A stretch of DNA of 43,181 nt, taken from positions 1 to 43,181 of the forward strand of contig NZ_LIKT01000031.1 in NCBI RefSeq assembly GCF_001294455.1, given 5' to 3'. Made by a program: the position numbers and the translations under genes. How positions within the stretch are numbered: position 1 is the stretch's first letter; every line of letters starts with the position of its first letter. Shown here piece after piece: positions 568 to 21,347 of this stretch. Source of the stretch: Phaeobacter sp. 11ANDIMAR09 (GTDB taxonomy: Bacteria; Pseudomonadota; Alphaproteobacteria; Rhodobacterales; Rhodobacteraceae). Below the pieces are notes generated by a model, which did no database searches, was not told where the DNA came from, and saw only the letters and a program-made list of their open reading frames with translations.

Positions 568-1704
568 TTACCCGGCGTTTTCTGGAGACCATAAATGATA
601 GGAATTCTTCAGTTCTGCGATGGTTTTGACACCCAGTTGAGCCATTGTAAGACTGACTTCTTGGCTTAGAATTTCCCAGAGCGCACGAAGTCCTTCAATA
701 CCGCCTGCTGCGATTGCAAATAACAAGATCCGGCCGAGGAAAACAAAATCTGCCCCCATCACATAGGCTTTGACGATGTCTTCGCCTGTGCGAATGCCAG
801 AATCGAAGAAAAGTGGGAATTCTGGACCTAGTGTTTCGCGAATTTTTCGCAGGGCAAAGATCGCAGGTGGTGCGCTTTCCAGTTGGCGGCATCCATGGCT
901 GGAAACCTGGATTGCGTCGACACCAGCATCGCGTAGTCGCAAGGCGTCCTCAGGGTTTAGGACGCCTTTGACAACCAGTTGGCCGGGCCAAGCCTGACGG
1001 AGGGTATCAAGATATGCCCAATCTGTTGCTGCGCGGCTTTCTGTACGGTCAAAGATGTAGTTCTTGCCATCAAAGTTGGCCAATTTTGGGCTGCCCTTTG
1101 CAAGCGATGAAAGAGACCAGCCTGGATGCATTGCGAAATCCACAAACTGCCGAGGCCCGATGCGAAAGGGCATCTTGAAGCCATGGCGCAATTCACGCGG
1201 ACGTCGCCCGACTTCGGGAACATCTAGCGTTAAGATCAGTGTCCCATATCCAGCCTTTTGGGCGCGTTCTACAAGCTTCATTGTGCCGCTGCCGTCGCCA
1301 CTGAAATACAACTGGAACCAAGCGGTGCCGCCGGACGCTTTGTGGAGGGTCTCGAGGTCGGTAGACGCCACTGTCGATACCCCATGTGGCACCCGGTATT
1401 CGCGGGCGATTTTGGCCAGCATCAGATCAGCCCCAGGAGCGGCGAGGTTACACATGCCCATTGGGCTTATGCCAAAGGGACGCAACATCAGCCTGTCAAA
1501 CTGGGTCACTGACAGTTCTCTCTGAACCACATTGCATAGGACACGTGGGGTAAGTCTGATATCTTGCAGCGCCCTTTTGTTCAAAGTTGCGCCATGCTCT
1601 TGCCCCGCCGCTCCGTCTATATAGTCAAATACCATCCAAGGAAGACGTTTGCGCGCCAATCGGCGCGCATCCGCAGATGAGTGAATACCAGTGTCAAACA
1701 GCAT
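568..1704 (-). CDS. FMN-dependent L-2-hydroxyacid dehydrogenase (LldD family), candidate sulfolactate dehydrogenase
   Basis: A 378-aa flavoenzyme of the glycolate oxidase / L-lactate dehydrogenase family. Visible family residues are the N-terminal FDYIDGAAG segment, QLY (about residue 130), TLDVPEVGRRPRE, the lysine in VVKGVLNPEDA, and the catalytic His and Arg in SSHGCRQLE. A flavin-phosphate loop reads FFDSGIRTGEDIVKA then GADFVFLGR. The ATG at 1704 is chosen because it starts the conserved N terminus and lies 8 bases after the comE stop; an upstream ATG would overlap comE. It is the last gene of the sulfonate operon. Family knowledge: these enzymes oxidise L-2-hydroxyacids. Inference from context: the substrate is (R)-3-sulfolactate, which has the L configuration, and the product is sulfopyruvate for ComDE. 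It may be the enzyme called SlcD in roseobacters, but I cannot confirm that identity. Lactate or mandelate remain alternatives. Confidence 0.82.
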   Translation of the reverse strand: MLFDTGIHSSADARRLARKRLPWMVFDYIDGAAGQEHGATLNKRALQDIRLTPRVLCNVVQRELSVTQFDRLMLRPFGISPMGMCNLAAPGADLMLAKIAREYRVPHGVSTVASTDLETLHKASGGTAWFQLYFSGDGSGTMKLVERAQKAGYGTLILTLDVPEVGRRPRELRHGFKMPFRIGPRQFVDFAMHPGWSLSSLAKGSPKLANFDGKNYIFDRTESRAATDWAYLDTLRQAWPGQLVVKGVLNPEDALRLRDAGVDAIQVSSHGCRQLESAPPAIFALRKIRETLGPEFPLFFDSGIRTGEDIVKAYVMGADFVFLGRILLFAIAAGGIEGLRALWEILSQEVSLTMAQLGVKTIAELKNSYHLWSPENAG

Positions 1705-1712
1705 GTGGTGCC

Positions 1713-2267
1713 CTAGGCCCGCACTGTTTTCATAAACCTGTCTCGGATCACCACTGGATCCATGGTGATCACCGGCACCGGTATATTTCCGCTTTTGCAT
1801 TTGGCTACGATGATTGTCATCTGGTTGCCCTTGATGGCCTCCTGCAGAGCTTTTCCGGTATCTTCGGCAGCCACTTCAACGACGTTTTCGCAGCCACAGG
1901 CACGGGCTACAGCTGCGAGGGAGGTCTTTTTCCCCGCATAGGTTGGCTGATCGCCAGTCGATCCATAGCTGCCATTGTCGATGATCAAGAGGATATAGTT
2001 GTCTCGAGCGTTATTGGCTATCGTCGGTAGAGTGCCAAAATTGGTCAGAACCGAGCCATCCCCGTCGATAGAAATCACCTTTTTGTCTTGTGCCAATGCC
2101 AACCCAAATCCGATTGAGGATGAAAGGCCCATGGTGCCAAGCATGTAAAAGGTGCTTGGCTGATCGTCGATCATATGCAGCTCCTGGCTTGGCAGGCCAA
2201 TGTTGCAGACCACTAGTTGGTCGCGCAGAATGGGGGCAATGTCTTTCAGAATATCAGAACGGATCAT
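1713..2267 (-). CDS. comE: Sulfopyruvate decarboxylase, beta subunit (ComE)
   Basis: A 184-aa thiamine-diphosphate-binding half enzyme. The TPP motif begins with GDG at residues 69-71 (IDGDGSVLTN) and closes with DNG at 97-99 (LLIIDNGSYGSTGDQPT). The segment LGTMGLSSSIGFGLALA before it is also typical of the C-terminal domain of TPP decarboxylases. Its ATG (2267-2265) overlaps the comD TGA by 4 bases (ATGA), so the two subunits are translationally coupled. ComDE pairs convert 3-sulfopyruvate to sulfoacetaldehyde and CO2. In archaea this serves coenzyme M synthesis; in roseobacters it serves C3-sulfonate breakdown. The neighbouring DHPS genes argue for the catabolic role. Phosphonopyruvate decarboxylase is a related alternative, but that enzyme is usually one chain. 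Confidence 0.88.
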   Translation of the reverse strand: MIRSDILKDIAPILRDQLVVCNIGLPSQELHMIDDQPSTFYMLGTMGLSSSIGFGLALAQDKKVISIDGDGSVLTNFGTLPTIANNARDNYILLIIDNGSYGSTGDQPTYAGKKTSLAAVARACGCENVVEVAAEDTGKALQEAIKGNQMTIIVAKCKSGNIPVPVITMDPVVIRDRFMKTVRA

Positions 2268-2770
2268 TGGTCGCCGTAGCCTCCCCAGAAATTGGCATCG
2301 GTCAGAATTGCGACCGGCTTGTTGCACATGAATGTGTACTTCAGGATGTTGTCGAATTCATCCGCATCGGATTGCTTGTGAAAATGATAAGTTGGGATAT
2401 TCATCTGGGCGAGCAACGCCTTGGTGTGCACGGCCATTTCAACCTGGCAGGCGACGGGCTCTCGCAGCTCACCGCGATATGAGATCAGCATAGGCAGGGG
2501 CATCCGGTAGTACTGGATCAGGGTGGCCAGCGTATTGATGGTTACGCCGATGGCGGTGTTTTGCATGATGATGGCAGGTCGCTTTCCTCCCATCCAGGCC
2601 CCTGCACACAACCCCATGCCCTCGTCTTCTTTGTTTGAGGGGACGTGAAGAACACCTGGGCGGGCTTCGATCTCGTCGATGACGCCTGCTAATTGCTTAC
2701 ATGGGACTGTCGTGACGAAACTGATGTCATTTGCGACCAGATCATCAACAAGTTTTGTGTTGATAGACAA
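2264..2770 (-). CDS. comD: Sulfopyruvate decarboxylase, alpha subunit (ComD)
   Basis: A 168-aa N-terminal (pyrimidine-binding) half of a TPP decarboxylase. The pattern FVTTVPCKQLAGVIDEI, followed by NKEDEGMGLCAGAWMGGKRP, contains the glutamate that activates the TPP aminopyrimidine. IIMQNTAIGVTINTL and the proline-rich strand MPLPMLISYRGE follow. The start is a TTG at 2770-2768: on the minus strand a strong AAAGGAGA lies 7 bases before it, and the protein then begins like other ComD chains. An ATG-started reading from 2821 would add 17 unlikely residues and overlap uspA. The gene is 26 bases downstream of uspA and overlaps comE by 4 bases. It acts with ComE on sulfopyruvate in the cytoplasm. 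Confidence 0.86.
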   Translation of the reverse strand: MSINTKLVDDLVANDISFVTTVPCKQLAGVIDEIEARPGVLHVPSNKEDEGMGLCAGAWMGGKRPAIIMQNTAIGVTINTLATLIQYYRMPLPMLISYRGELREPVACQVEMAVHTKALLAQMNIPTYHFHKQSDADEFDNILKYTFMCNKPVAILTDANFWGGYGDQ

Positions 2771-2796
2771 AAGGGGGTCTCCTTTGGGGTGAAAAA

Positions 2797-3201
2797 TCAA
2801 CGCAGTACAATGACCGCGCATGATGCTTGGCGAACAATTCGGGCGGCGGTGGTGCCCAGAAAATAGTCTCGCAAGCCAGGTTTATGGGAACCAACAATGA
2901 TTGCATCGGCGCCTATCTCAGCGGCATAAGCCGTGATGGTGCGACTTGAATGCCCTTTGAGGATTACAGGCTTTACGTTTGCGACCCCATTGACCCGTGC
3001 CGCCAACATGCGCTTGGCGTCATTGTAAGCCTTTTGAACGAGATCGTCGTCGAGGTAGGTGCTGACAGATCCGCTGAGCGGCTCGTAGACATGCAGGGCA
3101 ATGATTTCAGCGCTTTTGCCACCTAGGCGTTGTGCTGTCTCAATTGCCTGTTCGGCAAATCCATGTTCCAGAGACAGGGCGAGGATTATCTTGTCATACA
3201 C
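2797..3201 (-). CDS. Universal stress protein, UspA family
   Basis: A 134-aa single UspA domain. It starts KIILALSLEHG, has the middle strand IIALHVYEP, and ends with IGADAIIVGSHKPGLRDYFL then GTTAARIVRQASCAVIVLR. The final part is the family's glycine-rich ATP-binding loop followed by the GT(T/S)A..I signature, so ATP binding is plausible. It lies 3 bases downstream of the zinc dehydrogenase and 26 bases before comD, inside the sulfonate operon. UspA proteins are recurrent partners of TRAP transporter operons (TeaD of the ectoine TRAP system is a studied case), where they modulate uptake. I infer a similar regulatory role here. The precise ligand is unknown. Confidence 0.85.
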   Translation of the reverse strand: MYDKIILALSLEHGFAEQAIETAQRLGGKSAEIIALHVYEPLSGSVSTYLDDDLVQKAYNDAKRMLAARVNGVANVKPVILKGHSSRTITAYAAEIGADAIIVGSHKPGLRDYFLGTTAARIVRQASCAVIVLR

Positions 3202-3204
3202 GGG

Positions 3205-4203
3205 TTAGCTCCTTTCCGGCGCGGTTTCAGGTTGCAAAAGAACCTTCGGTGCAGCAACAACATCGCTGCGAATGTCCGAAAAGGCGTTTGCGCCATCCGC
3301 AAGCGGTCTGATTTCGGTCCAATCCAGAGACCCAAGGCGTCCATCAAAAATGGCCTGTGCAGTCTGTTCAAAATCTTTGGCGGTGTAGGTATAGGTACCG
3401 ATAAAGGTGATTTCCTGTAGGGTCATCCGGCGAATATCCAAACCGCCGCCATCCTCTCCCAATCCGATATGTCCGATCACCCCGCCGGGACGAACACAGG
3501 AAGATGCGGTGGCCCGTGTTGCGGCATATCCGACACCATCTATGACGAGATCGAACAGATCACTATCCGGCGCGACAGCCAGGACAGACTGTGCGCAGAC
3601 ATCAGCCAGGTAAGCGCGTCGAAGCGGATTTGGTTCGACGATTGTGACGCTATCAACCCCCTGCGCTTTCAGGCTCAACGCTGCGCCCAGCCCAATGGCG
3701 CCGCCGCCCAAAACCAGAGCCGTGCTGCAGGAGCCAGAGAGGGTAGCCAAGGACAGTTTCACTGTATGCCATCCACAGGCGATGGGCTCGGCTAGAGCCG
3801 CTTTTGAAAGCGCAATGTCTTCCGGAACCGTCACCAGGTTTCTGTTTGGTATTGCAACCAGATCGGCAAATCCACCTTCGCGCGGCGGCATGGAGATAAT
3901 TTGCCGCTCTGGGCAGAGGTTGTCGCGTCCCTCCATGCAGGCAGCGCATGAACCGCAAGTCACCAGAGGATTTACTGTTACCCGCTCACCATTGCGCGCT
4001 CCGCCCTCAATGACTCCCGAAACTTCGTGGCCAAGGATTAAAGGCGCTGGCCGACGATTATCATGGCCAAGATAGGCATGCATGTCCGACCCGCAGATCC
4101 CCACACAGGCAATTCTTATCAGCTGGTTTCCCAGCTCAAGCGCAGGTTCCTGAACGTCTTGATAACTCAGCGCCTCGGGGCCTTGATAAACTAAAGCCTT
4201 CAT
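3205..4203 (-). CDS. Zinc-dependent alcohol dehydrogenase (MDR family), candidate DHPS 2-dehydrogenase
   Basis: A 332-aa medium-chain dehydrogenase. Catalytic zinc ligands are Cys37 (GICGSDMH) and His59-Glu60 (LGHEVSG). The structural zinc is bound by Cys83, Cys86, Cys89 and Cys97 in the lobe CGSCAACMEGRDNLC. The nucleotide-binding turn GGGAIGLGAAL lies near residue 165. Its ATG overlaps the SDR stop by 4 bases (ATGA). The family includes sorbitol and threonine dehydrogenases. DHPS-degrading bacteria carry two dehydrogenases besides HpsN, HpsO and HpsP, proposed to interconvert DHPS enantiomers through the 2-ketone. This gene and its SDR neighbour fit that pair by position, but which is which cannot be told from sequence. 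Confidence 0.85.
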   Translation of the reverse strand: MKALVYQGPEALSYQDVQEPALELGNQLIRIACVGICGSDMHAYLGHDNRRPAPLILGHEVSGVIEGGARNGERVTVNPLVTCGSCAACMEGRDNLCPERQIISMPPREGGFADLVAIPNRNLVTVPEDIALSKAALAEPIACGWHTVKLSLATLSGSCSTALVLGGGAIGLGAALSLKAQGVDSVTIVEPNPLRRAYLADVCAQSVLAVAPDSDLFDLVIDGVGYAATRATASSCVRPGGVIGHIGLGEDGGGLDIRRMTLQEITFIGTYTYTAKDFEQTAQAIFDGRLGSLDWTEIRPLADGANAFSDIRSDVVAAPKVLLQPETAPERS

Positions 4204-4961
4204 TTTGCTGTAAAACCTCCATCCACCATCAAAACTTGACCAGTCACATAGGCCGAGGCATCAGAGCATAAGAAGATAAGAGGTCCGTCCAAATCATCTA
4301 GCTCACCGTTACGACCAATACAGGTCTGTGCCGCATTGCCAGCCGCACGTGTGGGGTCTTCGAAAACAGCCGCTGTCAGTTCAGTCTGAAAGAAGCCGGG
4401 ACCTATTGCGTTGGCGGTAATGCCAAATGGCGACCAAGCCTCTGCCATAGCGCGGGTCAATTGCCCGATCCCTGCTTTGCTGGCCCCATAGGCAATACCA
4501 CCGGGGAAGGCCCGCGTGGTTTGTAACGATGCGAAGTTGACAATCCGACCCCAGCCCTTGTCCTTCATCGATGGAACCAGATGTTGGCTCAGGAAAAATG
4601 GGGACGTAAGATTCAAATTCAAAGTGGCATCCCACCCTTCGTAGGTGACGTCATCGGCGGCTTGTCGGGTGTTGACCCCGGCTGCATGAACCAAGATATC
4701 CGGGGCACCGAAGGGTTTAATCAGCTCATCCGCCAGGTCCGCCAATCTGTCACGGTCGGAAACATCGAATGTGATCGCTGCGGTGTCACCGTCAGCGCTT
4801 GCCCGCCAATCAGCCAGCGCAACCGATCGGCGGGCCACGCCGATCACACGTGCGCCTGCCTGAGCCAGAACCGTAGCTGCCTGACGACCTAGCCCCGAAC
4901 TGGCTCCGGTCACGCAGGCGACTTTACCGCGCACAGAAAACAGATTTTGCAGCTCAGCCAT
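4200..4961 (-). CDS. Short-chain dehydrogenase/reductase, candidate DHPS 2-dehydrogenase
   Basis: A 253-aa classical SDR. The cofactor loop TGASSGLG starts at residue 18, and HAAG is near 92. The catalytic residues are Ser145, Tyr158 and Lys162 (YGASK), and the C terminus has the usual VTGQVLMVDGGF. Arg44-Arg45 after the second strand (GVARRS) would suit NADP(H), though this is only suggestive. The start overlaps the hpsN stop by 8 bases and the stop overlaps the zinc dehydrogenase start by 4 bases, so the three dehydrogenases are tightly coupled. Together with the zinc enzyme it is a candidate for the HpsO/HpsP pair that racemises DHPS through the 2-keto form and so feeds the (R)-enantiomer to HpsN. 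The role is inferred from position. Confidence 0.84.
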   Translation of the reverse strand: MAELQNLFSVRGKVACVTGASSGLGRQAATVLAQAGARVIGVARRSVALADWRASADGDTAAITFDVSDRDRLADLADELIKPFGAPDILVHAAGVNTRQAADDVTYEGWDATLNLNLTSPFFLSQHLVPSMKDKGWGRIVNFASLQTTRAFPGGIAYGASKAGIGQLTRAMAEAWSPFGITANAIGPGFFQTELTAAVFEDPTRAAGNAAQTCIGRNGELDDLDGPLIFLCSDASAYVTGQVLMVDGGFTAK

Positions 4962-6261
4962 TTGCGGTCAGATCAAAAGTTTCACCTGGGAAGTATTTTG
5001 CCAACCGCACGTCGGCAGCGCGGGCATGTCCTTCCATGCCTTCCAGCCGGGAAATTCGCGCTGTGGCTTCGGCTACCGGTTTGGAGCCTTCGCGGGTGGC
5101 TCGCTGCCAAGTAACGATTTTCATATACTTGTGGACAGACAGGCCTCCCGTGTAGTTGGCCGCACCAGAGGTGGGTAATACATGGTTGGTCCCTGCTGCC
5201 TTGTCGCCATAAGACACCGTCGTTTCTTCACCAAGAAACAATGAGCCATAGCATGTCAGACGGTTTAGCCACCAATCCAGACCGTCAGCCTGAACCGTCA
5301 GATGTTCGGGAGCGTAATCGTCTGACGTGGCGGCCATCTCCTCGCGATCCGCACAGACGATGACCTCAGCATAGTCGCGCCAGGCTGCCGTGGCATTCTC
5401 ACGGTTCACCTGGGGTAAATCGTCAATCAGCTCTGGTACACGGGACATAACGTCTTGGGCTAGGTCCCGATCATCCGTGACCAACCAGACGGGTGAGTTG
5501 TAGCCGTGTTCTGCCTGACTAACGAGATCGGTGGCAACGATATGCGGGTCAGCAGTTTTATCCGCCAAGATGAGGCTATCTGTGGGTCCAGCGATCATGT
5601 CGATACCAACCCGACCAAAGAGGATGCGCTTTGCTTCCGCCACAAACTGGTTGCCTGGTCCAACCAGAATATTGGCCTTGGGCAGACCAAACAAACCAAA
5701 GGTCATTGCCGCCACGCCCTGTACGCCACCCATGGCCATAATCTTATCTGCCCCACAGATATGCGCGGCATAGACAATTGCCGGTGCAATCCCAGTGCCG
5801 GGACGAGGTGGAGAACAGCACGTGATATGCTTGCAGCCTGCGACTTTAGCAGTCGTCACTGTCATAATTGCGCTGGCCACATGGCTGTAGCGTCCTCCGG
5901 GCGCGTAACACCCGGCAGCATCCACAGGGATTGCCTTTTGACCTGCGACAAGCCCCGGCACGATCTCGTATTCCACATCTGCGACAGTGGATTTCTGTTT
6001 CTCTGCGAACCGCTTAACATTGTCGTGGGCGAACTGGATGTCAGCCTTCAGTTTGTCCGGAACCAAGGCGCAGGCGGCTTCGATCTCTTCCGCTGACAGC
6101 AAGACACTGCCGTTGTATTTGTCGAACTTGGCCGCATAGTCCAATGCAGCGGCATCGCCGCCTGTCTCGATGTCAGACAGGATCTTTACCACTGTGTCAT
6201 GCACATCCGACGCATCGGATTTCGACGTCAAGGTTGCTCTTTTGAGGTATTCACGAGCCAT
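4954..6261 (-). CDS. hpsN: Sulfopropanediol 3-dehydrogenase (HpsN)
   Basis: A 435-aa member of the histidinol dehydrogenase family. Zinc ligands of the family are present as Gln249 and His252 (SQAEHGYNSP), Asp353 (SYGDKAAGTNHVLPT) and His412 (EGMEGHARAADVR). The catalytic Glu-His pair is Glu319-His320 (YAPEHLTV). HpsN performs two NAD-dependent steps, (R)-DHPS to the aldehyde to (R)-3-sulfolactate. I prefer HpsN to true HisD because no other his gene is nearby, TRAP transporter and ComDE genes surround it, and the overall sequence has the HpsN character as I recall it from roseobacters (for example the GGLSVHKYMKIVTWQRATRE stretch). Its start is 9 bases after the TRAP large permease. Cytoplasmic. 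Confidence 0.9.
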   Translation of the reverse strand: MAREYLKRATLTSKSDASDVHDTVVKILSDIETGGDAAALDYAAKFDKYNGSVLLSAEEIEAACALVPDKLKADIQFAHDNVKRFAEKQKSTVADVEYEIVPGLVAGQKAIPVDAAGCYAPGGRYSHVASAIMTVTTAKVAGCKHITCCSPPRPGTGIAPAIVYAAHICGADKIMAMGGVQGVAAMTFGLFGLPKANILVGPGNQFVAEAKRILFGRVGIDMIAGPTDSLILADKTADPHIVATDLVSQAEHGYNSPVWLVTDDRDLAQDVMSRVPELIDDLPQVNRENATAAWRDYAEVIVCADREEMAATSDDYAPEHLTVQADGLDWWLNRLTCYGSLFLGEETTVSYGDKAAGTNHVLPTSGAANYTGGLSVHKYMKIVTWQRATREGSKPVAEATARISRLEGMEGHARAADVRLAKYFPGETFDLTANG

Positions 6262-6270
6262 TTTTGGATC

Positions 6271-7599
6271 CTATTTGTAGATATCGGGAAGCAGAGTTGT
6301 CGAAATCGCGGGCACATAGGCGATCAACAGAACAACCAAGAGCATGAAGAAGACAAAGGGGACTGCGCGTGCGGCAATCTTGAGGATCGATTCACCAGTG
6401 ATCCCGGACACAACAAAGAGATTAAGTCCAAGCGGTGGTGTGATAAAACCGACACCCAGTGCAGTGATCATCATGATACAAAACTGAATCTCATTCATCC
6501 CGATGTTGTCGGCCAAAGGCTTAAGGATCGGTGCGAGGATCACGATATTCGGTGTGGTCTCCATCACACAGCCAGCGGCTATCAATATGCCGATCATCAG
6601 CAAGATCAGTAGATAGGGATCCTCGGTCAACGAAGTTACTGCGGTCACAAACCCCTGTGGCACCCCCATGATCGCAAGGGCCTCCGCTAAAGGCGCAGAA
6701 AATGCGATGATCGGCAAAATGATCCCGTTCACCTTTGCTGAACTCACGAGCATTGCCGGGAAGTCTGCCAGTTTTAACGTGCCGAGTAGGAACCCCATGA
6801 TGATTGTGACGACGACTGCAGTTGCACCTGCTTCCGTGGGGGTCAGGCGGCCGGAAAAGATGCCATAGAAAATGATGCCGGGCACAATGAAGGCATACCA
6901 GTCCGAGGCCAGTGCTCGGCGGAGGTTCGTAAACCATTCGCCGATTCTTATGTTGCCGCCCCCTTCATATCCGTAGATCCGGTTCACCACGATATTGGTC
7001 ACAAGGATTGAGATCAGGATGGCCAAACCTGGGATCACAGCCGCCAGAAACAGGGTTGATGCTGAAATGCCCAACACAAGGCCGATGATGATATAGGCGA
7101 TGGAGGGCGGGATGAGGATGCCGGTGCAGGCCCCTGCTGCCACCAGGGCACAGGCATAGGGACGCGGGTAGCCGCTTTCGACAAGGCGGGCAATCGTCAT
7201 CCTCCCAACAGCAGCTGCACCCGCTGCGTCAGAGCCAGAGATCGCCGCAAACATACCGCACACGAGAACTGTGGCCGAACCAAAGCCACCTTTGGCCCAA
7301 CAGGTCAGCGCCTCGGCGACATTCAGGAATTTTCGACTTAGACCAGTGCGTACTAAAACGTCTCCGGTCAGGATAAACAGAGGAACGGCAGTCAATGCAA
7401 AGGCGTCGATGCCGGTGAACAGGCTCTCACCTACAAGGCTGAGCGGCAAATCACCTGACATAACCAACATCAAGATTGCCGCGGCTCCGATGGAGGCCCA
7501 GACCGGCACGGCCATTGCGATAAGCCCGACGAAAAGCAGAACAGGCAGATAAAAGTCCCAGCCGAGTTCGACCGTTTGTTGAAGATTGTTCCAGAGCAT
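6271..7599 (-). CDS. dctM: TRAP transporter large permease (DctM family)
   Basis: A 442-aa integral membrane protein with about 12 hydrophobic segments. Family features seen are the early MLVMSGDLPLSLVGESLFTG, FALTAVPLFILTGDVLVRTG, GGFGSATVLVCGMFAAISGSDAA and the later PLGLNLFVVSGITGESI. The start is placed at the ATG at 7599 because GAGGGA lies 7 bases upstream. The ATG at 7614, which overlaps the small permease stop, has no ribosome site. With the small permease and the periplasmic protein it forms a sodium-coupled TRAP importer. The operon context points to a C3 sulfonate (DHPS or sulfolactate) as substrate; the sequence alone does not show this. Confidence 0.9.
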   Translation of the reverse strand: MLWNNLQQTVELGWDFYLPVLLFVGLIAMAVPVWASIGAAAILMLVMSGDLPLSLVGESLFTGIDAFALTAVPLFILTGDVLVRTGLSRKFLNVAEALTCWAKGGFGSATVLVCGMFAAISGSDAAGAAAVGRMTIARLVESGYPRPYACALVAAGACTGILIPPSIAYIIIGLVLGISASTLFLAAVIPGLAILISILVTNIVVNRIYGYEGGGNIRIGEWFTNLRRALASDWYAFIVPGIIFYGIFSGRLTPTEAGATAVVVTIIMGFLLGTLKLADFPAMLVSSAKVNGIILPIIAFSAPLAEALAIMGVPQGFVTAVTSLTEDPYLLILLMIGILIAAGCVMETTPNIVILAPILKPLADNIGMNEIQFCIMMITALGVGFITPPLGLNLFVVSGITGESILKIAARAVPFVFFMLLVVLLIAYVPAISTTLLPDIYK

Positions 7600-7610
7600 T
7601 GTGTCGTCCC

Positions 7611-8123
7611 TCAATCAAACAGCTTGTCGCCTTCGTAGACGGGGGTGCCGTTACGAAGAGATCTGAGGTCCCGCAAAAGGGATTGCGAAAGCCGGAAAAT
7701 CATCAAAGAGAAACCCAAGGGAACTGCCGCAAGGAACCAGACTTTTGAGATCCGGAGGCCATCCGTTACCGACCCAAATTTGGCCGAGACCAAAACGGTT
7801 TCGAAGGACCAGTACAGCGCCACCAAAGCTACTGCGAACATCACCAGATCACCGAAGATATAGACAATCGCCTTAGGACGATTTCCGAGGTAATGCAGCA
7901 AGACGTCAATACGGATATGGGCCCGTTCTTTTACCGCAGCGGCCGCTCCGATCCAGGCTAGATAGATAAAGGAATACCGGACGATTTCTTCGCCCCATAT
8001 CGAAGAATATGAGAAAACCTCGCGCCGCAGCACTTCGATCGCCATGGTGACGACAAGCATCACGTAGAAGACCAAGAGGAGCCAGCGCTCGGCGTTCTCA
8101 TCAATATTTCTCAGAAATGACAT
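7611..8123 (-). CDS. dctQ: TRAP transporter small permease (DctQ family)
   Basis: A 170-aa membrane protein with four hydrophobic helices: about residues 15-35, 45-63, 85-107 and 127-147. The family pattern WGEEIVRYSFIYLAWIGAAAAVKERAHIRID is present between helices 1 and 2. It lies about 100 bases downstream of the binding-protein gene, behind a hairpin that could attenuate transcription, and 11 bases before the large permease start. It is the small membrane subunit of the TRAP importer and is required for transport in studied TRAP systems. Confidence 0.88.
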   Translation of the reverse strand: MSFLRNIDENAERWLLLVFYVMLVVTMAIEVLRREVFSYSSIWGEEIVRYSFIYLAWIGAAAAVKERAHIRIDVLLHYLGNRPKAIVYIFGDLVMFAVALVALYWSFETVLVSAKFGSVTDGLRISKVWFLAAVPLGFSLMIFRLSQSLLRDLRSLRNGTPVYEGDKLFD

Positions 8124-8182
8124 AACAGGCCTCGACGACTATTGCTCAAAGGGTCGGGGTCTTCACCAACGCCGGTTGTGGG

Positions 8183-8211
8183 AAAAAAGTGGGAGCCCAA
8201 TGCGGGCCCCC
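8183..8211 (-). terminator. Hairpin plus T-run between dctP and dctQ (attenuator-like)
   Basis: On the minus strand GGGGGCCC pairs with GGGCTCCC (8 bp with one G-T, loop of 5 bases) and is followed after two bases by six T. It lies just after the binding-protein gene and before the permease genes. Such partial terminators commonly let a periplasmic binding protein be made in excess over its membrane subunits. Confidence 0.6.
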
Positions 8212-8222
8212 AAGGGAGTGAC

Positions 8223-9371
8223 TTAGGCGTCGTGGACGAAGTACTTTCCTTGCGTACCTGCGGCCTCTTCCAGCTTTGCAAACGCATCCATGGATCCTGC
8301 GAGTTCTTTTTTGAACTCATCCCATTCAGGTCGCTGATAACCACCTGCCGCCTGCCATTCCGCCAGTTGATCAGCACTAAGGGAATGGAACTCCACACCA
8401 GATTTAGCCAATTCAGACATCGCATAGGCCCGCGCTGATGGGACTTTGGAAAGGTTCTGATGTGCGGTCATTTCAGAGCCCCACATCACGCCCTCTTGTA
8501 CCTCTGCAGGCAGGCTGCTGAACCATTCCAGATTGCAAGAATAAACTTGGCTGTCAGGCACGGCTTGGGTGAAGGTCACATGGCTGAGGATGTCTTTGAA
8601 GCCAAAGACGTAGAGCGCGCCAACTGAAGGGTCGAGCGCATCTGCCACACCCTGTTTGATCGCCGAGGGTGTCTCGCCCCAGGCCACCGGAGTTGGGTTC
8701 GCCCCCACAAGGCGGTAGTATTGCTGCAGCATCTTGGATCCGGGGACCCGGAATTTTACGCCGCTCAGATCTCCGGGAGACAAGACTGCACCAGCCCCAC
8801 CTTTGCGGACAGCCACTACACGGGGGTCAATGTTCACATAGAACAGCGCCTTAAACCCAGCGGCTTCGACCTTGGGGTGGACTTCGGTTTTCCAATGGTC
8901 AGAGTTCACTAGGTTGGTAAAGCGCTGATTGGAACCGCACAGATAAGGCATGTTGATTAGATCAACCGTAGAGGCGAAGGGTGCAAAATTGGAAAGCGAA
9001 TGCTGAGCAGCCTGAATGGTTCCACCTTGCACTTTTTGCACCAACGCCCCGCCAGCACCCAACTGCCCACCCGGAGCCAGTTTCACGTAAACCTTGCCAT
9101 TGGTGGCGTTTTGAATGTTCTCTTTGAGATCCAGCTGCATGATCGGATAGCTGCGTGATGCTCCTAACACATAGGCCGTGGCCAAGGTCATAATGTGATC
9201 AGCTGCCTTCTCGCGCTCGCGTTCTTCTTTATTCGTCTGCGCAACGGCCTCGGTAGACCAAAGCGTACCAGCTGCCCCAGCGACCAATGCTGCTGTAAAG
9301 CTGCCCGTCCCGGCCAGTTTTAGAAAATTCCGGCGTGACGCCGAGGCAAGTTCTTTGTTGTTCCGGTCCAT
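8223..9371 (-). CDS. dctP: TRAP transporter periplasmic substrate-binding protein (DctP family), Tat-exported
   Basis: A 382-aa protein with a twin-arginine signal: SRRNFLKLAG at about residues 12-21, then an alanine-rich hydrophobic core and a cleavage-like AVA near residue 44. The mature part has DctP features, including LGAGGALVQKVQGGTIQAAQ and the ligand-binding arginine region LSGVKFRVPGSKMLQQYYR followed by NPTPVAWGE. The start has a clear GGGAGGA 5 bases upstream and lies 21 bases after the small membrane protein. It would present the substrate to the two permeases. The substrate is inferred to be DHPS from the operon. Tat export suggests folding, or cofactor or ligand binding, before transport. 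Confidence 0.9.
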   Translation of the reverse strand: MDRNNKELASASRRNFLKLAGTGSFTAALVAGAAGTLWSTEAVAQTNKEEREREKAADHIMTLATAYVLGASRSYPIMQLDLKENIQNATNGKVYVKLAPGGQLGAGGALVQKVQGGTIQAAQHSLSNFAPFASTVDLINMPYLCGSNQRFTNLVNSDHWKTEVHPKVEAAGFKALFYVNIDPRVVAVRKGGAGAVLSPGDLSGVKFRVPGSKMLQQYYRLVGANPTPVAWGETPSAIKQGVADALDPSVGALYVFGFKDILSHVTFTQAVPDSQVYSCNLEWFSSLPAEVQEGVMWGSEMTAHQNLSKVPSARAYAMSELAKSGVEFHSLSADQLAEWQAAGGYQRPEWDEFKKELAGSMDAFAKLEEAAGTQGKYFVHDA

Positions 9372-9392
9372 GTTTTCCTCCCGATGGACAGT

Positions 9393-9584
9393 TCAGCGCT
9401 GTTGCTCTTTGGCAATTTTTTCAGCAGCTTCTCTTTGCAAGATTGCTGCGACAAATGAGATCGAGGCAGCGAGCAAAAATAGCATTTCGGACACATCCCC
9501 CAGGAATCCGCCCATACCCATCGACCCCAAGGCCACATTTGTTCCGAACAGGGCAAACAGACAAAGTGCTAGGATCAAGAGCAT
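9393..9584 (-). CDS. Small two-helix membrane protein, first gene of the sulfonate operon
   Basis: A 63-aa protein with hydrophobic segments at about residues 2-20 and 33-49, a glycine-rich hinge (GSMGMGGFLGD) between them and a charged tail (QREAAEKIAKEQQR). The ATG at 9584 has GGAGAA a few bases upstream and is preferred over the upstream ATG at 9623, which would place coding sequence close to the operator. It lies about 45 bases downstream of the predicted promoter and operators and 21 bases before the TRAP binding protein. I do not recognise a family. Position suggests an accessory of the TRAP importer, but this is inference only. Confidence 0.65.
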   Translation of the reverse strand: MLLILALCLFALFGTNVALGSMGMGGFLGDVSEMLFLLAASISFVAAILQREAAEKIAKEQQR

Positions 9585-9628
9585 TGGTTTCTCCGGGCAA
9601 ACAGCGAAAGGCTCGATTCGCACATGTA

Positions 9629-9644
9629 ATGTAAGCGCTTACAT
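9629..9644. promoter_or_regulatory. LacI-family operator 1
   Basis: Perfect 16-bp palindrome ATGTAAGCGCTTACAT with the central CG typical of LacI/GalR family operators. It covers the predicted -10 (TTACAT, 9634-9629 on the minus strand) of the sulfonate operon promoter, so binding would block transcription. The divergent LacI regulator gene begins about 100 bases away. Confidence 0.78.
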
Positions 9645-9657
9645 GTGCGCAATGCAA
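9629..9657 (-). promoter_or_regulatory. Predicted sigma-70 promoter of the sulfonate operon
   Basis: On the minus strand TTGCAT (9657-9652) and TTACAT (9634-9629) are separated by exactly 17 bases. The -35 lies at the edge of operator 2 and the -10 inside operator 1. It is about 45 bases before the first start codon (9584). Predicted from sequence only. Confidence 0.5.
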
Positions 9658-9666
9658 GCGCTTACA
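9653..9666. promoter_or_regulatory. LacI-family operator 2
   Basis: TGCAAGCGCTTACA, the same palindrome as operator 1 with one mismatch in the left arm. Its centre is 23 bp from that of operator 1, roughly two helical turns, so two repressor dimers could sit on nearly the same face of the DNA. It abuts a TTGACG (9667-9672) that may be the -35 of the regulator gene, which would give autoregulation. Confidence 0.72.
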
Positions 9667-9741
9667 TTGACGGCAACCAACCTAGACACTTAGGCTTTGG
9701 GATGGGGTGTAAAAATCTAAGAAATGCGATACTGAGCCAAA

Positions 9742-10770
9742 ATGACGACTGACGACAATAATATGGGCCGAACCCCAACCCTGGCTGATGTAGCAGGGCT
9801 GGCCGGTGTCTCGACAGCCACAGTGTCCCGCTGTCTGAACTCTCCAGACCAGGTTGTCGAAAGAACGCGTAAAAAGGTCGAGGATGCCGTTCTCAAATTG
9901 GGATACGCTCCAAATTTTAACGCACGTGCTTTGGCGGCCAAACGTACCAACACCATTGGTGCGATCATTCCAACGATGGAAAACGCCATTTTTGCGCGCG
10001 GCCTACAGTCGTTTCAAGAAGAACTGGGATGCAGCGGGGTAACTCTTTTGGTCGCGTCCTCTTCATATCGCACTGATTTGGAGGAAGAACAAATCCGCAC
10101 CCTGGTTTCACGCGGTGCCGACGGAATTCTGTTGATCGGCTTGCATCGAGACCCAAAGATTTATGAGTTTCTCAAACGTCAAAATGTCCCCGTTGTTGTC
10201 GCTTGGGTGTTTGATCCGAACGCCAAGGTTCCAACAGTTGGCTTCGACAATTTCTCAGCAATGAAGGCTTTGGCGGACAGGGTGATCAGCATGGGTCATC
10301 GTCGCCTTTCAACAATCACAGCTAGCCCTCAGGATAACGACAGGGCCAGTGAGCGTTTAAGGGGCATTTATGCCTCAATGATGGAAGCAGGCATTCCTAA
10401 AACGGAGTTGTCGATCGTTGAAGCCGAATATGGGATAGACGAAGGAGGTGCGGCGCTGGAACAGCTTTTGTGCCAGACGGTTCGGCCATCAGTAGTTATG
10501 TGCGGCAATGATGTTCTTGCTGTTGGGGCCATCGCCAAAGCACAGGAATTAGGATTGTGCGTCCCTGACGATATTTCGGTGACTGGATTTGACGATATTG
10601 AGATCGCGAAAATCTCATCGCCAGCGCTTACCACTGTTCATGTCCCGCACCGGCGAATGGGCAAGGAGGCAGCCAAAATGCTTATCAATCTAGTTAATGC
10701 TGCTAAGAACCAAAACAGCATTTTGATCGAGACATCTCTGGTAGTTCGTGCCTCATTGTCTGGTGCCTGA
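9742..10770 (+). CDS. LacI-family transcriptional regulator of the divergent sulfonate operon
   Basis: A 342-aa regulator. The N-terminal helix-turn-helix reads PTLADVAGLAGVSTATVSRC (residues about 11-30), followed by the hinge KLGYAPNFNARALAAKRTN. A periplasmic-binding-protein-like sensor domain fills the rest (IGAIIPTMENAIFARGLQSF, then GVCG-type core VVMCGNDVLAVGAIAKAQEL and VTGFDDIEIA). ATG 9742 is used; the in-frame ATG seven codons later is possible because neither has a strong ribosome site. It is divergent from the sulfonate operon across 157 bases that hold two matching palindromes. I infer repression relieved by an operon substrate or intermediate. Sulfonate operons elsewhere use other regulator families, so the inducer is open. 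Confidence 0.88.
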   Translation: MTTDDNNMGRTPTLADVAGLAGVSTATVSRCLNSPDQVVERTRKKVEDAVLKLGYAPNFNARALAAKRTNTIGAIIPTMENAIFARGLQSFQEELGCSGVTLLVASSSYRTDLEEEQIRTLVSRGADGILLIGLHRDPKIYEFLKRQNVPVVVAWVFDPNAKVPTVGFDNFSAMKALADRVISMGHRRLSTITASPQDNDRASERLRGIYASMMEAGIPKTELSIVEAEYGIDEGGAALEQLLCQTVRPSVVMCGNDVLAVGAIAKAQELGLCVPDDISVTGFDDIEIAKISSPALTTVHVPHRRMGKEAAKMLINLVNAAKNQNSILIETSLVVRASLSGA

Positions 10771-13504: not shown

Positions 13505-14428
13505 TCAGGCGATGCCGCCGAAATGCAGGGTTTTGACCTCGAGGTATTCGTCGATACCGTGATGGGCACCTTCGCGGCCCAGACCGCTTTCCTTGATGCC
13601 GCCAAAGGGCGCGACCTCGGTGGCAAAGCCGCCGACATTGATGCCGATCATGCCGGTCTCGAGCTCTTCGCTGACGCGGAAGGTGCGAGTCAGATCGTTG
13701 GTGTAGAAATATGCAGCCAGCCCGAATGGTGTGGCATTGGCCGCCGTCAGCACCTCTTCTTCGGTCTCAAACCGGAATAGCGGCGCCACCGGACCAAAGG
13801 TTTCTTCCCCGGCGACGATCATGTCGGAAGTCACGCCGGTGACCACAGCAGGGCTGATGAAGCGGGTGCTTTCATCCTGCTGTTCGCCGCCAACAATGAC
13901 ACGACCGCCTTTGGCCGTGGCATCGTCGAGATGCGATTTGATTTTGGCAATGGCGGCCTGGTTGATCATCGGGCCGATCTCGACCCCGTTTTCGAACCCA
14001 TCGCCCAGTTTCATCTTTCCAACCACAGCCGCCAGTTTTTCGGCAAAGGCATCATAGACGCCGGCCTGAATGAAAATCCGGTTGGCGCAGACACAGGTCT
14101 GGCCGCCATTACGGAACTTCGAGGCCATGACGCCCTCAACGGCCAGATCCAGATCGGCATCGTCAAAGATGATGAAGGGAGCATTGCCGCCCAGTTCCAG
14201 GCTGAGGCGTTTCATGGTGCCAGCGCATTGCTCCATTATCAGTTTGCCTACTCGGGTCGAGCCGGTGAAGGACAGTTTGCGCACCGCTGTGCTTTGGGTC
14301 AGGGCGCCGCCCACACCAGCGGGATCGCCTGTGACGATGTTAATCGCACCCTTCGGGAACCCTGCGCGCTCAGCCAGCACACCCAAGGCCAGCGCAGTAA
14401 AGTGGGTGACTTTCAGGCCGAAAGGCAC
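13505..14428 (-). pseudogene. gabD: 5'-truncated NAD(P)-dependent succinate-semialdehyde dehydrogenase (GabD)
   Basis: The reading frame gives about 300 residues that match the C-terminal three fifths of GabD: VLAERAGFPKGAINIVTGDP, FTGSTRVGKLIMEQ, the catalytic Glu in LELGGNAPFIIFDDADLD, the catalytic Cys in GGQTCVCANR, then EETFGPVAPLFRF and APFGGIKESGLGREG near the end. A full GabD is about 485 aa, so roughly 180 N-terminal residues with the first part of the NAD-binding fold are absent. Homology stops close to 14390-14428, where the expected KPA..TP motif is scrambled, and a TGA lies five codons before the only start (GTG 14428). I infer a rearrangement that removed the 5' end. The remainder is open, so the loss is probably recent. 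Confidence 0.8.
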
Positions 14429-19121: not shown

Positions 19122-21347
19122 TCAGGGGGCCAAATGGGGCTGGGCATGCGATGCCACGGGCGGAACCGCATGCGGAATATACAGATCTGCGCTGGTCGAC
19201 TCCGAGACCTCCAGATGGGCGGGGGGCAGCCCCTGCAGGTAGCGCGCATAGGCCATGTCAAAGCCCTGTTCCAGAGATCGGGTGAACCCCTTGGTATCAA
19301 ACAGAGGGGTCGAAGTTCGATTGCGCTGCAGCTTGCCGCGTAGAGAGGCCAGCGCGTCCGGATCCGAGGCCAGTTCCAGTGCGCGTGCCTCATAGTTGGC
19401 GGCGGATTTGGCGATCAGTTCCGGCAGTCCCATCGCGCTGACCAGGCTGGCGCCAACCCGAGAGGCAAATTGGCGCCCCGGTAGGGTCAGCACAGGCACG
19501 CCTGCCCACAGCGCGTCGCTGGCAGTTGTATGGGCGTTGACCACAAAGGTATCGAGAAACAGATCGGCGACCTGGTGGCGCGCGAGGTGATCTTCTTGGG
19601 CGACGCGGGGCGCAAAAATCAAACGGTCAGGGTTCTGCCCGCGTTTGGCCGCCTCTTTGCGCAGATTTGCTTTGGAGGTTTCGCTGCAATCCAGCAGCCA
19701 GAGCACGCTGTCTTCAACCTGATCCAGCAAGCGCATCCAGATGTCGAATTCCACAGGCGTGATTTTGTAGCTGCTGTTGAAGCAGCAGAACACAAATCCA
19801 TTGTCGGGCAGGCCGCAGTCCTTGCGGGTGTATTGGCGACCTGACAGGGCCCGCTTGTCATCATTGACCTGATAACTATGCGGCAGGCGCAGCAGATGTT
19901 CTTCAAAATAGCGCTCGCTGCCAGAGGGGCAGGTGACATGGTCGCCAATTAAGTAATCTATGGCGGTACTGCCCAGGGTGGCGGGAAAGCCGAGATAGGA
20001 CATATGCAGCGAGGCCAGACGGTTGGCAAACAGCGGTGTTCGGTTTTCTCCGGTAAAGCCTTTTAGGTCGACTGCGATATCCAGGCTGTCCTGTTTGGCC
20101 AGGGCCGTTGCCTCGGCGTCGGAAAGCTGGCTGATGTCCTTGAAGCTGGTGACCGCCTGACGGACCCGGGCGCGCATCGCGTCTTCGGGCGCTTTGTCAT
20201 AGGAATAGGCAATGATGTCGAACCGGCTTTGATCATGAGCTTCAAACAGCCCGGCCATCAGTCGCATGGTTGCATGATCGTGGAAATCAGAGGAGAAATA
20301 CCCAATCCGAAGCCGCTCGGGCCGGTCTGCTCCCTGCTGTTCACCGGAAAGGGCGCGCGCAGGCTCTACCTTGGGCAGGGCTGCATTTGCATAGGCTTGA
20401 ATGCGCAGACGCAACAGGTCTGGATTATCCTCAAAGGTGAGAGAGGCAAAAGGCGAGCAGGGCTTGCCGGTGAGGCCAAGCTGACGGCGGGCCTGCTGAT
20501 ATTCATCCAGCCAGTTCCAGTCATTCAAATGCGCTTGGGCGTGCAGCTTGTCGGCGCGGGTGCGATCATCGCCGGGGGTTTCTTCCAGCATGGCTTCAAA
20601 GCGCAGGATTGCGGCCTCTTTTTCGCCGTCCAGAGATTGCAGTTGCGCCAGATTATACTGGGCACTGGCCAGATCCGGGGCGAGCACGGTGGCCCGTTCC
20701 AGCAGGGCTTTGGCTTGAACCATCTGACCAGTCTTCAGCAGAATATTGCTGTAGTTGAAGAGGAACACTGGATTCTCTGGCTCCAGCTCGACAGCCCGTT
20801 TCAACAGAGGTTCTGCCGCGCTCAGGCGCCCCAGCCCAACCAGGGTGTTTGCCTTGTTGCTGAGAGCGTTGAGGTTATCTGCGTCCAGAGACAGGGCCTT
20901 GTTATACAGCGCAAGGGCGTTGTCAGGGCGCCCCTGGGCATGATGGACCTCTCCCATGGCGGCAAAGGTCGAAGGGTCCTTGGGGTTCAGCTCGCAGGCC
21001 TTATTCAGGCATGTTGCCGCTTCGTCGAGATTGTTTGACTTCAGGTGGCATTTGCCAAGGGTGTTCCACAGGAAATGGGATCTTCTATGATGATTGAGAA
21101 GCGCGGCGCAGGTGGTGGCGACCTGGGCATAGTTGCCAGCACTGAAACTGTCTGCGAGCGTTTTTTGCTGTTCCAAAGTTGGGTTCAGGTCCCGCTGTAT
21201 ATCCGTTTGCAGGGCGTTTAAGGCAGCCTGAGCGCGGGTGTTTCTCGGAAACTTAGCGAGGATATCGCGGTAGATGCTGGCCGCGTCCTCATGCTTGTCT
21301 TTCCGTTCCAGTCGGTTTGCTTTGTTCATGGATGCAGCGATATTCAT
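19122..21347 (-). CDS. TPR-containing O-glycosyltransferase, SPINDLY/OGT type (GT41)
   Basis: A 741-aa soluble protein. Residues about 1-260 are tandem TPR repeats (for example CHLKSNNLDEAATCLNKACE and ALYNKALSLDADNLNALSNK). From about residue 340 comes the GT41 catalytic region: RIGYFSSDFHDHATMRLM with the conserved HxxHA-like histidines, DIAVDLKGFTGENR, MSYLGFPATLGSTAIDYLIG, then VFCCFNSSYKITPVEFDIWM whose lysine contacts the donor in OGT, and GVPVLTLPG. Members transfer sugars from nucleotide donors to Ser/Thr of proteins; bacterial ones often modify flagellin or other surface proteins. The gene is divergent from the GSCFA/SGNH pair across 259 bases. The acceptor cannot be inferred. Confidence 0.87.
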   Translation of the reverse strand: MNIAASMNKANRLERKDKHEDAASIYRDILAKFPRNTRAQAALNALQTDIQRDLNPTLEQQKTLADSFSAGNYAQVATTCAALLNHHRRSHFLWNTLGKCHLKSNNLDEAATCLNKACELNPKDPSTFAAMGEVHHAQGRPDNALALYNKALSLDADNLNALSNKANTLVGLGRLSAAEPLLKRAVELEPENPVFLFNYSNILLKTGQMVQAKALLERATVLAPDLASAQYNLAQLQSLDGEKEAAILRFEAMLEETPGDDRTRADKLHAQAHLNDWNWLDEYQQARRQLGLTGKPCSPFASLTFEDNPDLLRLRIQAYANAALPKVEPARALSGEQQGADRPERLRIGYFSSDFHDHATMRLMAGLFEAHDQSRFDIIAYSYDKAPEDAMRARVRQAVTSFKDISQLSDAEATALAKQDSLDIAVDLKGFTGENRTPLFANRLASLHMSYLGFPATLGSTAIDYLIGDHVTCPSGSERYFEEHLLRLPHSYQVNDDKRALSGRQYTRKDCGLPDNGFVFCCFNSSYKITPVEFDIWMRLLDQVEDSVLWLLDCSETSKANLRKEAAKRGQNPDRLIFAPRVAQEDHLARHQVADLFLDTFVVNAHTTASDALWAGVPVLTLPGRQFASRVGASLVSAMGLPELIAKSAANYEARALELASDPDALASLRGKLQRNRTSTPLFDTKGFTRSLEQGFDMAYARYLQGLPPAHLEVSESTSADLYIPHAVPPVASHAQPHLAP

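Follow-up and report, generated by a model that had tools for sequence, protein, structure and literature searches.

Gene organization

The window analyzed here is a 43,181-nucleotide stretch of Phaeobacter sp. 11ANDIMAR09 (contig NZ_LIKT01000031.1, positions 1 to 43,181). It contains a LacI-family gene that is divergent from eleven closely packed genes on the minus strand (9584 to 568), the same run that a sequence-only reading had described. The features are as follows.

9742 to 10770, plus strand: hpsR, LacI-family regulator (Pfam LacI HTH and Peripla_BP domains)
9653 to 9666: candidate HpsR operator 2, TGCAAGCGCTTACA, one mismatch from a palindrome
9630 to 9643: candidate HpsR operator 1, TGTAAGCGCTTACA, perfect palindrome
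9393 to 9584, minus strand: small ORF, 63 aa (translation; two predicted helices)
8223 to 9371, minus strand: hpsK, TRAP solute-binding protein, DctP (PF03480, NF037995)
7611 to 8123, minus strand: hpsL, TRAP small permease, DctQ (PF04290)
6271 to 7614, minus strand: hpsM, TRAP large permease, DctM (PF06808, TIGR00786)
4954 to 6261, minus strand: hpsN, predicted R-DHPS 3-dehydrogenase (best solved match 8wwe)
4200 to 4961, minus strand: hpsO, predicted SDR-type R-DHPS dehydrogenase (best solved match 8wwf)
3205 to 4203, minus strand: hpsP, predicted zinc-type S-DHPS dehydrogenase (best solved match 8wwd)
2797 to 3201, minus strand: hpsQ, universal stress protein (PF00582)
2264 to 2821, minus strand: comD, predicted sulfopyruvate decarboxylase alpha subunit (TIGR03845)
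1713 to 2327, minus strand: comE, predicted sulfopyruvate decarboxylase beta subunit (TIGR03846)
568 to 1800, minus strand: slcD, predicted FMN-dependent sulfolactate dehydrogenase (PF01070, FMN_dh; position)

None of the twelve reading frames has an internal stop, and successive genes are spaced by -88 to +99 bases when the longest-ORF starts are used. The larger overlaps, at comD, comE and slcD, probably arise because the starts were called further upstream than the true ones. In Alisedimentitalea, the annotated homologues of these genes encode 168, 184 and 379 aa, lengths that would be matched by starts at codons 18, 21 and 33, respectively. HpsM has an alternative ATG start at codon 6. Among the 66 relatives for which full context was available, 29 share the order of all eleven named genes, and because the order recurs in so many relatives it is not a product of chance. 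The genes hpsN, hpsO and hpsP are adjacent and are accompanied by transporter and regulator genes, the arrangement that marks an hps operon. All three TRAP subunits (DctP, DctQ and DctM) are present. Profile and solved-structure matches bear out the families named in the sequence-only reading (HpsN, ComD/ComE and a TRAP importer).

Predicted DHPS dehydrogenases

The HpsN protein invites confusion with histidinol dehydrogenase, as the NCBIfam hisD model scores it above cut-off and public records carry that name: all 20 plasmid homologues among the matches listed, of 155 records, are annotated as histidinol dehydrogenase. Were this name correct, the cluster would serve another alcohol or hydroxy acid. 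The best solved-structure match, however, is 8wwe (776 bits), while the highest-scoring chain of a histidinol dehydrogenase reaches 277 bits. HpsN enzymes are distinguished by a G-R-Y-A/S-H motif whose final His binds the sulfonate, a catalytic Glu-His pair and a zinc-ligand Asp, according to passages of PMC11382572. The protein encoded at 4954 to 6261 carries this signature: its GRYSH motif (residues 123-127) stands where the HisD motif would be, and it has E319, H320, D353, K354 and H360. In a tree built without HpsN of R. pomeroyi or Cupriavidus, it falls in a 28-row clade (support 100/100) separate from HisD; the earlier reading would have been abandoned had it grouped with true histidinol dehydrogenases. 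A separate, true hisD is found elsewhere in the genome (contig C37). Based on the bit scores, the motif residues and the tree, we reject the histidinol dehydrogenase assignment, which has next to no chance of being correct.

The best solved matches of all three dehydrogenases (8WWE, 8WWF and 8WWD for HpsN, HpsO and HpsP, respectively) are assayed DHPS dehydrogenases. HpsO matches 8wwf with 435 bits, followed by a protein labelled gluconate 5-dehydrogenase with 391 bits; it has the Ser145-Tyr158-Lys162 triad and the R-selective Gln147. HpsP matches 8wwd with 452 bits (next match: 103 bits) and has His59, Glu60 and Glu139, in the numbering of the published Roseobacteraceae HpsP. The sequence-only reading had these two enzymes racemizing DHPS. 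This older model, in which the pair acts through a C2 ketone and HpsN is the only route to sulfolactate, is kept in a 2024 paper that still assigns HpsNOP to epimerization, and the R. pomeroyi annotation labels HpsO and HpsP as 2-dehydrogenases (PMC4334477). In published assays, however, purified R. pomeroyi HpsO converts R-DHPS and a Roseobacteraceae HpsP converts S-DHPS to sulfolactaldehyde, in each case at C3 and with strict enantioselectivity, and the residues named in those assays are also present in HpsO and HpsP here. Racemization is thus unlikely, as each of the assayed enzymes oxidizes a single enantiomer. It is even less probable that the operon serves mainly for sulfolactate or another C3 sulfonate in the cell and that DHPS is a secondary substrate. 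Sulfolactate could enter the pathway, since SlcD and ComDE act below DHPS, but the operon includes three DHPS dehydrogenases and, in passages of PMC4334477, the homologous R. pomeroyi TRAP transporter is assigned to DHPS.

SlcD, ComDE and HpsQ

An FMN-dependent sulfolactate dehydrogenase, SlcD, went unnamed in the sequence-only reading and fits the gene at 568 to 1800. The product is related to lactate dehydrogenase models, all of which score below cut-off. The name is given from the position of the gene and from published annotation rather than from a specific model, and sulfolactate is the predicted substrate. ComE scores 242.5 bits against TIGR03846 (cut-off 221.5), while ComD, at 144.6 bits, is slightly below the cut-off of TIGR03845 (147.95).

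HpsQ resembles TeaD, the universal stress protein associated with the TRAP transporter TeaABC, in that a Usp gene lies within a TRAP operon. It may differ in the Usp ATP-binding pattern, G-2x-G-(8-10x)-G-S/T: in what is a weak test, this pattern was found in 0 of 63 HpsQ sequences.

Pathway genes elsewhere in the genome

The operon had been called self-contained. This is too strong, as cleavage of the C-S bond is encoded outside of it. Xsc and sulfite export had been expected elsewhere, and a profile search of the genome found xsc above the model cut-off on another contig, where it adjoins tauE and pta (xsc-tauE-pta), so that both xsc and a TauE-type exporter are accounted for. A search for xsc, cuyA and suyAB had also been proposed: besides the xsc described above, a cuyA-cuyB cluster is present on a further contig, while a suyB-type gene was missing, with 0 matches in the genome to PF04295 (which we take to be the Pfam family covering SuyB). 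The genome also encodes a second HpsN-like protein, on contig C9. Beyond papers on this pathway itself, literature searches on cysteinolate, CuyB and HpsR brought up only unrelated work and papers that treat cysteinolic acid as a solute of algae. A plasmid of Alisedimentitalea has xsc three genes ahead of the same LacI gene.

HpsR and its candidate operators

The same divergent LacI gene is found at 69 of 80 hpsN loci. The two candidate operators between hpsR and the small ORF are 23 bases apart, and the palindromic pair is kept in 66 of 70 regions. They are the only two sites in the whole genome (9630 and 9653) with at most one mismatch to the operator palindrome. At up to two mismatches there are eight sites, compared to nine for a reversed control pattern, so these weaker sites carry no meaning and a genome-wide HpsR regulon using the same operator was rejected. 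It does not appear that xsc shares the operator. A promoter scan of 9371 to 9900 found no sigma-70-like sites. The published passages on the hps pathway available to us contain no description of the operator pair.

A small membrane protein gene beside the TRAP genes

The 63-aa ORF is present in 55 of 55 hpsR-hpsK intergenic regions and in 0 of 15 hpsR-hpsN regions, and synonymous changes predominate only in its own frame. This conserved membrane-protein gene travels with the TRAP genes. The AlphaFold2 model has helices at residues 2-21 and 25-62 (mean pLDDT 80.7). The protein had no Pfam match at E <= 0.1 and no relative in a scan of viral contigs, and we found neither a description nor a name for it in the available published passages on the hps pathway. 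We tentatively suggest that it could be an unrecognized fourth TRAP subunit with two helices, which would bind HpsL/HpsM and so tune or stabilize uptake, making a four-gene unit under the twin operators of HpsR; the odds are against this.

Relationship to published hps operons

In Ruegeria pomeroyi DSS-3, SPO0590-0598 are annotated in the same order as hpsR (SPO0590, LacI family), the TRAP genes hpsKLM, hpsN, hpsO, hpsP, hpsQ (SPO0597, UspA stress protein) and slcD (SPO0598), according to passages of PMC4334477. The LacI and UspA genes, which had been thought to form an undescribed arrangement, are therefore already annotated there as hpsR and hpsQ and are common in roseobacters. Unlike the Phaeobacter locus, the DSS-3 operon, as given in those passages, has no comDE between hpsQ and slcD. 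The small ORF seems to be unannotated in DSS-3, because the tags SPO0590 and SPO0591 are consecutive. Passages of PMC11382572 report an hps-slcD-comDE cluster, with the Xsc pathway, for Ruegeria sp. ANG-S4. The order of its locus (L040) agrees throughout with that described here, for the eleven named genes as well as for the small ORF, and protein identities are 50-90%. The hpsRNOUPsuyAB cluster of Cupriavidus pinatubonensis JMP134 shares hpsN, hpsO and hpsP, but the MFS importer HpsU and the sulfolyase SuyAB replace the TRAP transporter, SlcD and ComDE (passages of PMC11382572). The operon arrangement is thus already in print, and the small membrane-protein gene beside the transporter is one extra over it.

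Proposed model

The locus is predicted to be the ComDE/Xsc variant of the roseobacter hps operon, through which 2,3-dihydroxypropane-1-sulfonate (DHPS) is catabolized (probability roughly 0.94). The proposed model is as follows. HpsR, bound to the two palindromes, probably represses hps transcription and would be released by DHPS or a product. DHPS would be imported by HpsKLM. By analogy with the published homologues, HpsO would convert R-DHPS and HpsP would convert S-DHPS to sulfolactaldehyde, and HpsN would take R-DHPS to R-sulfolactate in two NAD+-dependent steps. SlcD would oxidize sulfolactate to sulfopyruvate, which ComDE would decarboxylate to sulfoacetaldehyde. The oxidation of DHPS by way of sulfolactate and sulfopyruvate to sulfoacetaldehyde, which the sequence-only reading had also proposed, follows from the gene families and the published pathway. 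Xsc, encoded with the exporter and phosphotransacetylase genes, would then form acetyl phosphate and sulfite, and the cuyA-cuyB cluster may provide a second exit via cysteate.

No new principle comes from the operon itself. Algae and marine bacteria exchange sulfur and carbon to a major extent as DHPS, and for this reason the correct labelling of HpsN matters. Through the operator pair, regulation by HpsR can be approached directly, and the small membrane protein is a possible addition to TRAP transporters that experiments could test.

Operon organization and published relatives

The genome (4.7 Mb in 101 contigs) carries its DHPS (2,3-dihydroxypropane-1-sulfonate) operon on contig C31, where a LacI gene is divergent from eleven minus-strand genes. 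The features discussed are as follows:

9742-10770, + strand: hpsR, LacI-family regulator
9653-9666: palindrome, second copy
9630-9643: palindrome, first copy
9584 to 568, - strand: small ORF, hpsK, hpsL, hpsM, hpsN, hpsO, hpsP, hpsQ, comD, comE, slcD
9393-9584, - strand: small ORF
4954-6261, - strand: hpsN

Pfam and NCBIfam matches identify the transporter proteins DctP, DctQ and DctM, a histidinol dehydrogenase (HisD)-family protein, a short-chain dehydrogenase (SDR), a zinc alcohol dehydrogenase, a universal stress protein (Usp), an FMN-dependent hydroxy acid dehydrogenase and both sulfopyruvate decarboxylase subunits (ComE above its NCBIfam model cut-off, ComD 3 bits below its own). Roseobacter sp. 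MED193 is the nearest named relative among the fetched loci (HpsN 99% identical).

Two other frames lie in the window. An aldehyde dehydrogenase frame (13505-14428) matches profile positions 165-460 of 461 only, and its N-terminal part seems to be absent. The gene at 19122-21347 encodes a TPR protein of 741 aa that carries a glycosyltransferase family 41 domain; O-GlcNAc transferases are proteins of this type.

The sequence-only reading correctly recognized a DHPS operon but considered its LacI and UspA genes undescribed. Both are listed in the updated R. pomeroyi annotation, which gives SPO0590 hpsR (LacI family), hpsK, hpsL, hpsM, hpsN, hpsO, hpsP, SPO0597 hpsQ (UspA stress protein) and SPO0598 slcD (PMC4334477). 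According to PMC11382572, hpsNOP, slcD, comDE and xsc are carried by Jannaschia sp. CCS1, Ruegeria sp. ANG-S4 and Granulosicoccus antarcticus; the ANG-S4 locus (L040) shows the complete operon order found in the window. The LacI and UspA genes have therefore already been described, and the operon is ordinary, well studied and not new. Candidate hpsO, hpsP and hpsN genes are reported from 609 genomes in 126 genera (PMC11131964). Among the best 80 HpsN loci of the genome collection, which holds more, all eleven named genes occur in the window's order in 31 (29 of the 66 with enough flank on both sides). Gene counts over all 80 loci, some of which are truncated at contig ends, are 74 for hpsO, 77 for hpsP, 69 for the LacI gene, 62 for the Usp gene, 58 for comD, 55 for hpsK and 50 for slcD.

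DHPS dehydrogenases

Compared with solved structures, the 4954-6261 protein is most similar to 8wwe (776 bits) and also matches Cupriavidus HpsN 8v35 (519 bits), with the top histidinol dehydrogenase chain at 277 bits. The SDR is most similar to 8wwf (435 bits; runner-up, labelled gluconate 5-dehydrogenase, 391 bits) and the zinc enzyme to 8wwd (452 bits; following chain 103 bits). PMC11131964 identifies 8wwe as R. pomeroyi HpsN, 8wwf as HpsO of the same species and 8wwd as an HpsP named DsHpsP. HpsN of the window has GRYSH at 123-127, E319, H320, D353, K354 and H360; HpsO has S145, Q147, Y158 and K162; and HpsP has H59, E60 and E139. All of these are residues whose importance is demonstrated in PMC11131964 and PMC11382572.

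The sequence-only reading would have been overturned by placement of this HpsN among true histidinol dehydrogenases. A 62-row tree was built from the window's protein and every third of the 80 hpsN loci (27 in all), from a second HpsN-like group represented by this genome's copy and 15 of 16 other loci (L173, whose frame is over-long, was dropped), and from eight rows of a third group and ten of HisD; published HpsN sequences themselves are not among the rows. The window's HpsN falls within a 28-row HpsN clade (support 100/100), and the ten HisD rows form a separate clade (100/100). The tree program warned of long branches joining the third group and HisD. A single row, L172, keeps the second group from being monophyletic. 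The third HisD-family group of this bacterial family (L194, L197-L203) has GKFPM in place of GRYSH in 8/8 rows and is a clade of its own.

In public plasmid records, the HpsN relative is named hisD, histidinol dehydrogenase, in all 20 matches listed of 155 (rows H1-H20; L205 is NZ_CP123586.1). For the closest HpsN relatives among these listed records, the label is a misannotation.

Sulfur route

Xsc and sulfite export were expected to be encoded outside the operon, and xsc (927 bits against a cut-off of 676) does lie elsewhere in this genome. A MocR-type regulator gene precedes it, and genes for a TauE-type exporter and pta come immediately after it. The genome also has cuyA (526 bits, cut-off 450) together with cuyB (270, cut-off 190). 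PF04295, which presumably covers SuyB, had no match across the whole genome. In an Alisedimentitalea scapharcae plasmid, xsc lies three genes ahead of the same LacI gene. A route from DHPS to acetyl phosphate and sulfite via Xsc is therefore likely in this genome. DHPS would be converted to sulfolactaldehyde, sulfolactate, sulfopyruvate, sulfoacetaldehyde and finally acetyl phosphate and sulfite. The racemisation by the SDR and zinc enzyme proposed from sequence contradicts the assays of PMC11131964, although epimerisation is still written in the later PMC11382572.

Second sulfonate cluster

The same genome has a second sulfonate cluster on contig C9 (L101:296-7936, L204:7750-12111). It comprises a LysR-family regulator gene adjoining an NMT1-type ABC importer, and genes for an FAD/GcvT-type oxidoreductase, a GbdR-like AraC regulator, CuyA, a DegT-type aminotransferase and CuyB. 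It also encodes a second HpsN-like protein, in which the GRYSH motif is present. An integrase-core (transposase-type) frame (L101:8148-8822) immediately follows the HpsN-like gene. By analogy with HisD acting on histidinol, the cluster may oxidise cysteinolate to cysteate, and its aminotransferase may be the one termed unknown in PMC11382572. Among 16 relatives picked from a longer list, cuyA or cuyB is beside the HpsN-like gene in 11 and neither is in 5; 4 of the 16 have the aminotransferase. One relative has a trimethylamine-methyltransferase family gene (MTTB; L175:7698-9236) inside a cuyB-cuyA-HpsN-like-aminotransferase cluster. Together with the FAD/GcvT-type gene, this is a hint that the substrate is an N-methylated aminosulfonate.

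Candidate operators and small membrane protein

The intergenic region that separates hpsR from the nearest gene of the operon contains the 14-base palindrome TGTAAGCGCTTACA (9630-9643) and a second copy (9653-9666) with a single mismatch. This region was compared with those of 69 loci that have a LacI gene, giving 70 regions from related organisms, which are hence not independent. With up to 3 mismatches allowed, two sites 21-23 bases apart occur in 66 of the 70 and one site in the other 4. First-order Markov shuffles (n=1400) gave one site in 13 and two in none. Where hpsN directly follows hpsR (n=15), two sites are present in 13 regions and one in 2. Across the whole genome, only the 9630 and 9653 sites were found at ≤1 mismatch; at 2 mismatches there were 8 sites versus 9 for the reversed control, which is no excess. 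We infer that HpsR binds the palindrome pair.

The small ORF (9393-9584) encodes 63 aa. Relatives, identified through a motif taken from the first sequences, are present in 55/55 regions with hpsK beside hpsR and 0/15 without. Single-change codons over all sequence pairs, which are not independent, number 26885 synonymous versus 8762 non-synonymous in frame, compared with 6193 versus 30052 and 3746 versus 33485 in the shifted frames. The stop codon lies 19-33 bases ahead of hpsK in 54/55 regions and overlaps it by 1 base in one. A match occurs in 38 of 198 genomes of the family, one copy each. Four genomes in which it was not beside a listed full-length hpsN were fetched (G145, G098, G123 and G183, the last with the ORF seen by profile search alone), and hpsK, hpsL and hpsM adjoin it in all four. 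In G145 hpsN is simply truncated where the contig stops, and the G098 contig breaks off within hpsM; the hpsR-small ORF-hpsKLM block is separate from hpsN in G123 and G183. The small ORF therefore tracks the transporter, not the dehydrogenases.

An AlphaFold2 model of the protein has helices at 2-21 and 25-62 (mean pLDDT 80.7, pTM 0.48). It is a hypothetical protein in four plasmid records, and the literature found on this pathway gave no name for it, a search by its own name being impossible. What is added to this well-studied operon is modest, namely a model for its operators and one small membrane protein, the latter worth a deletion test.
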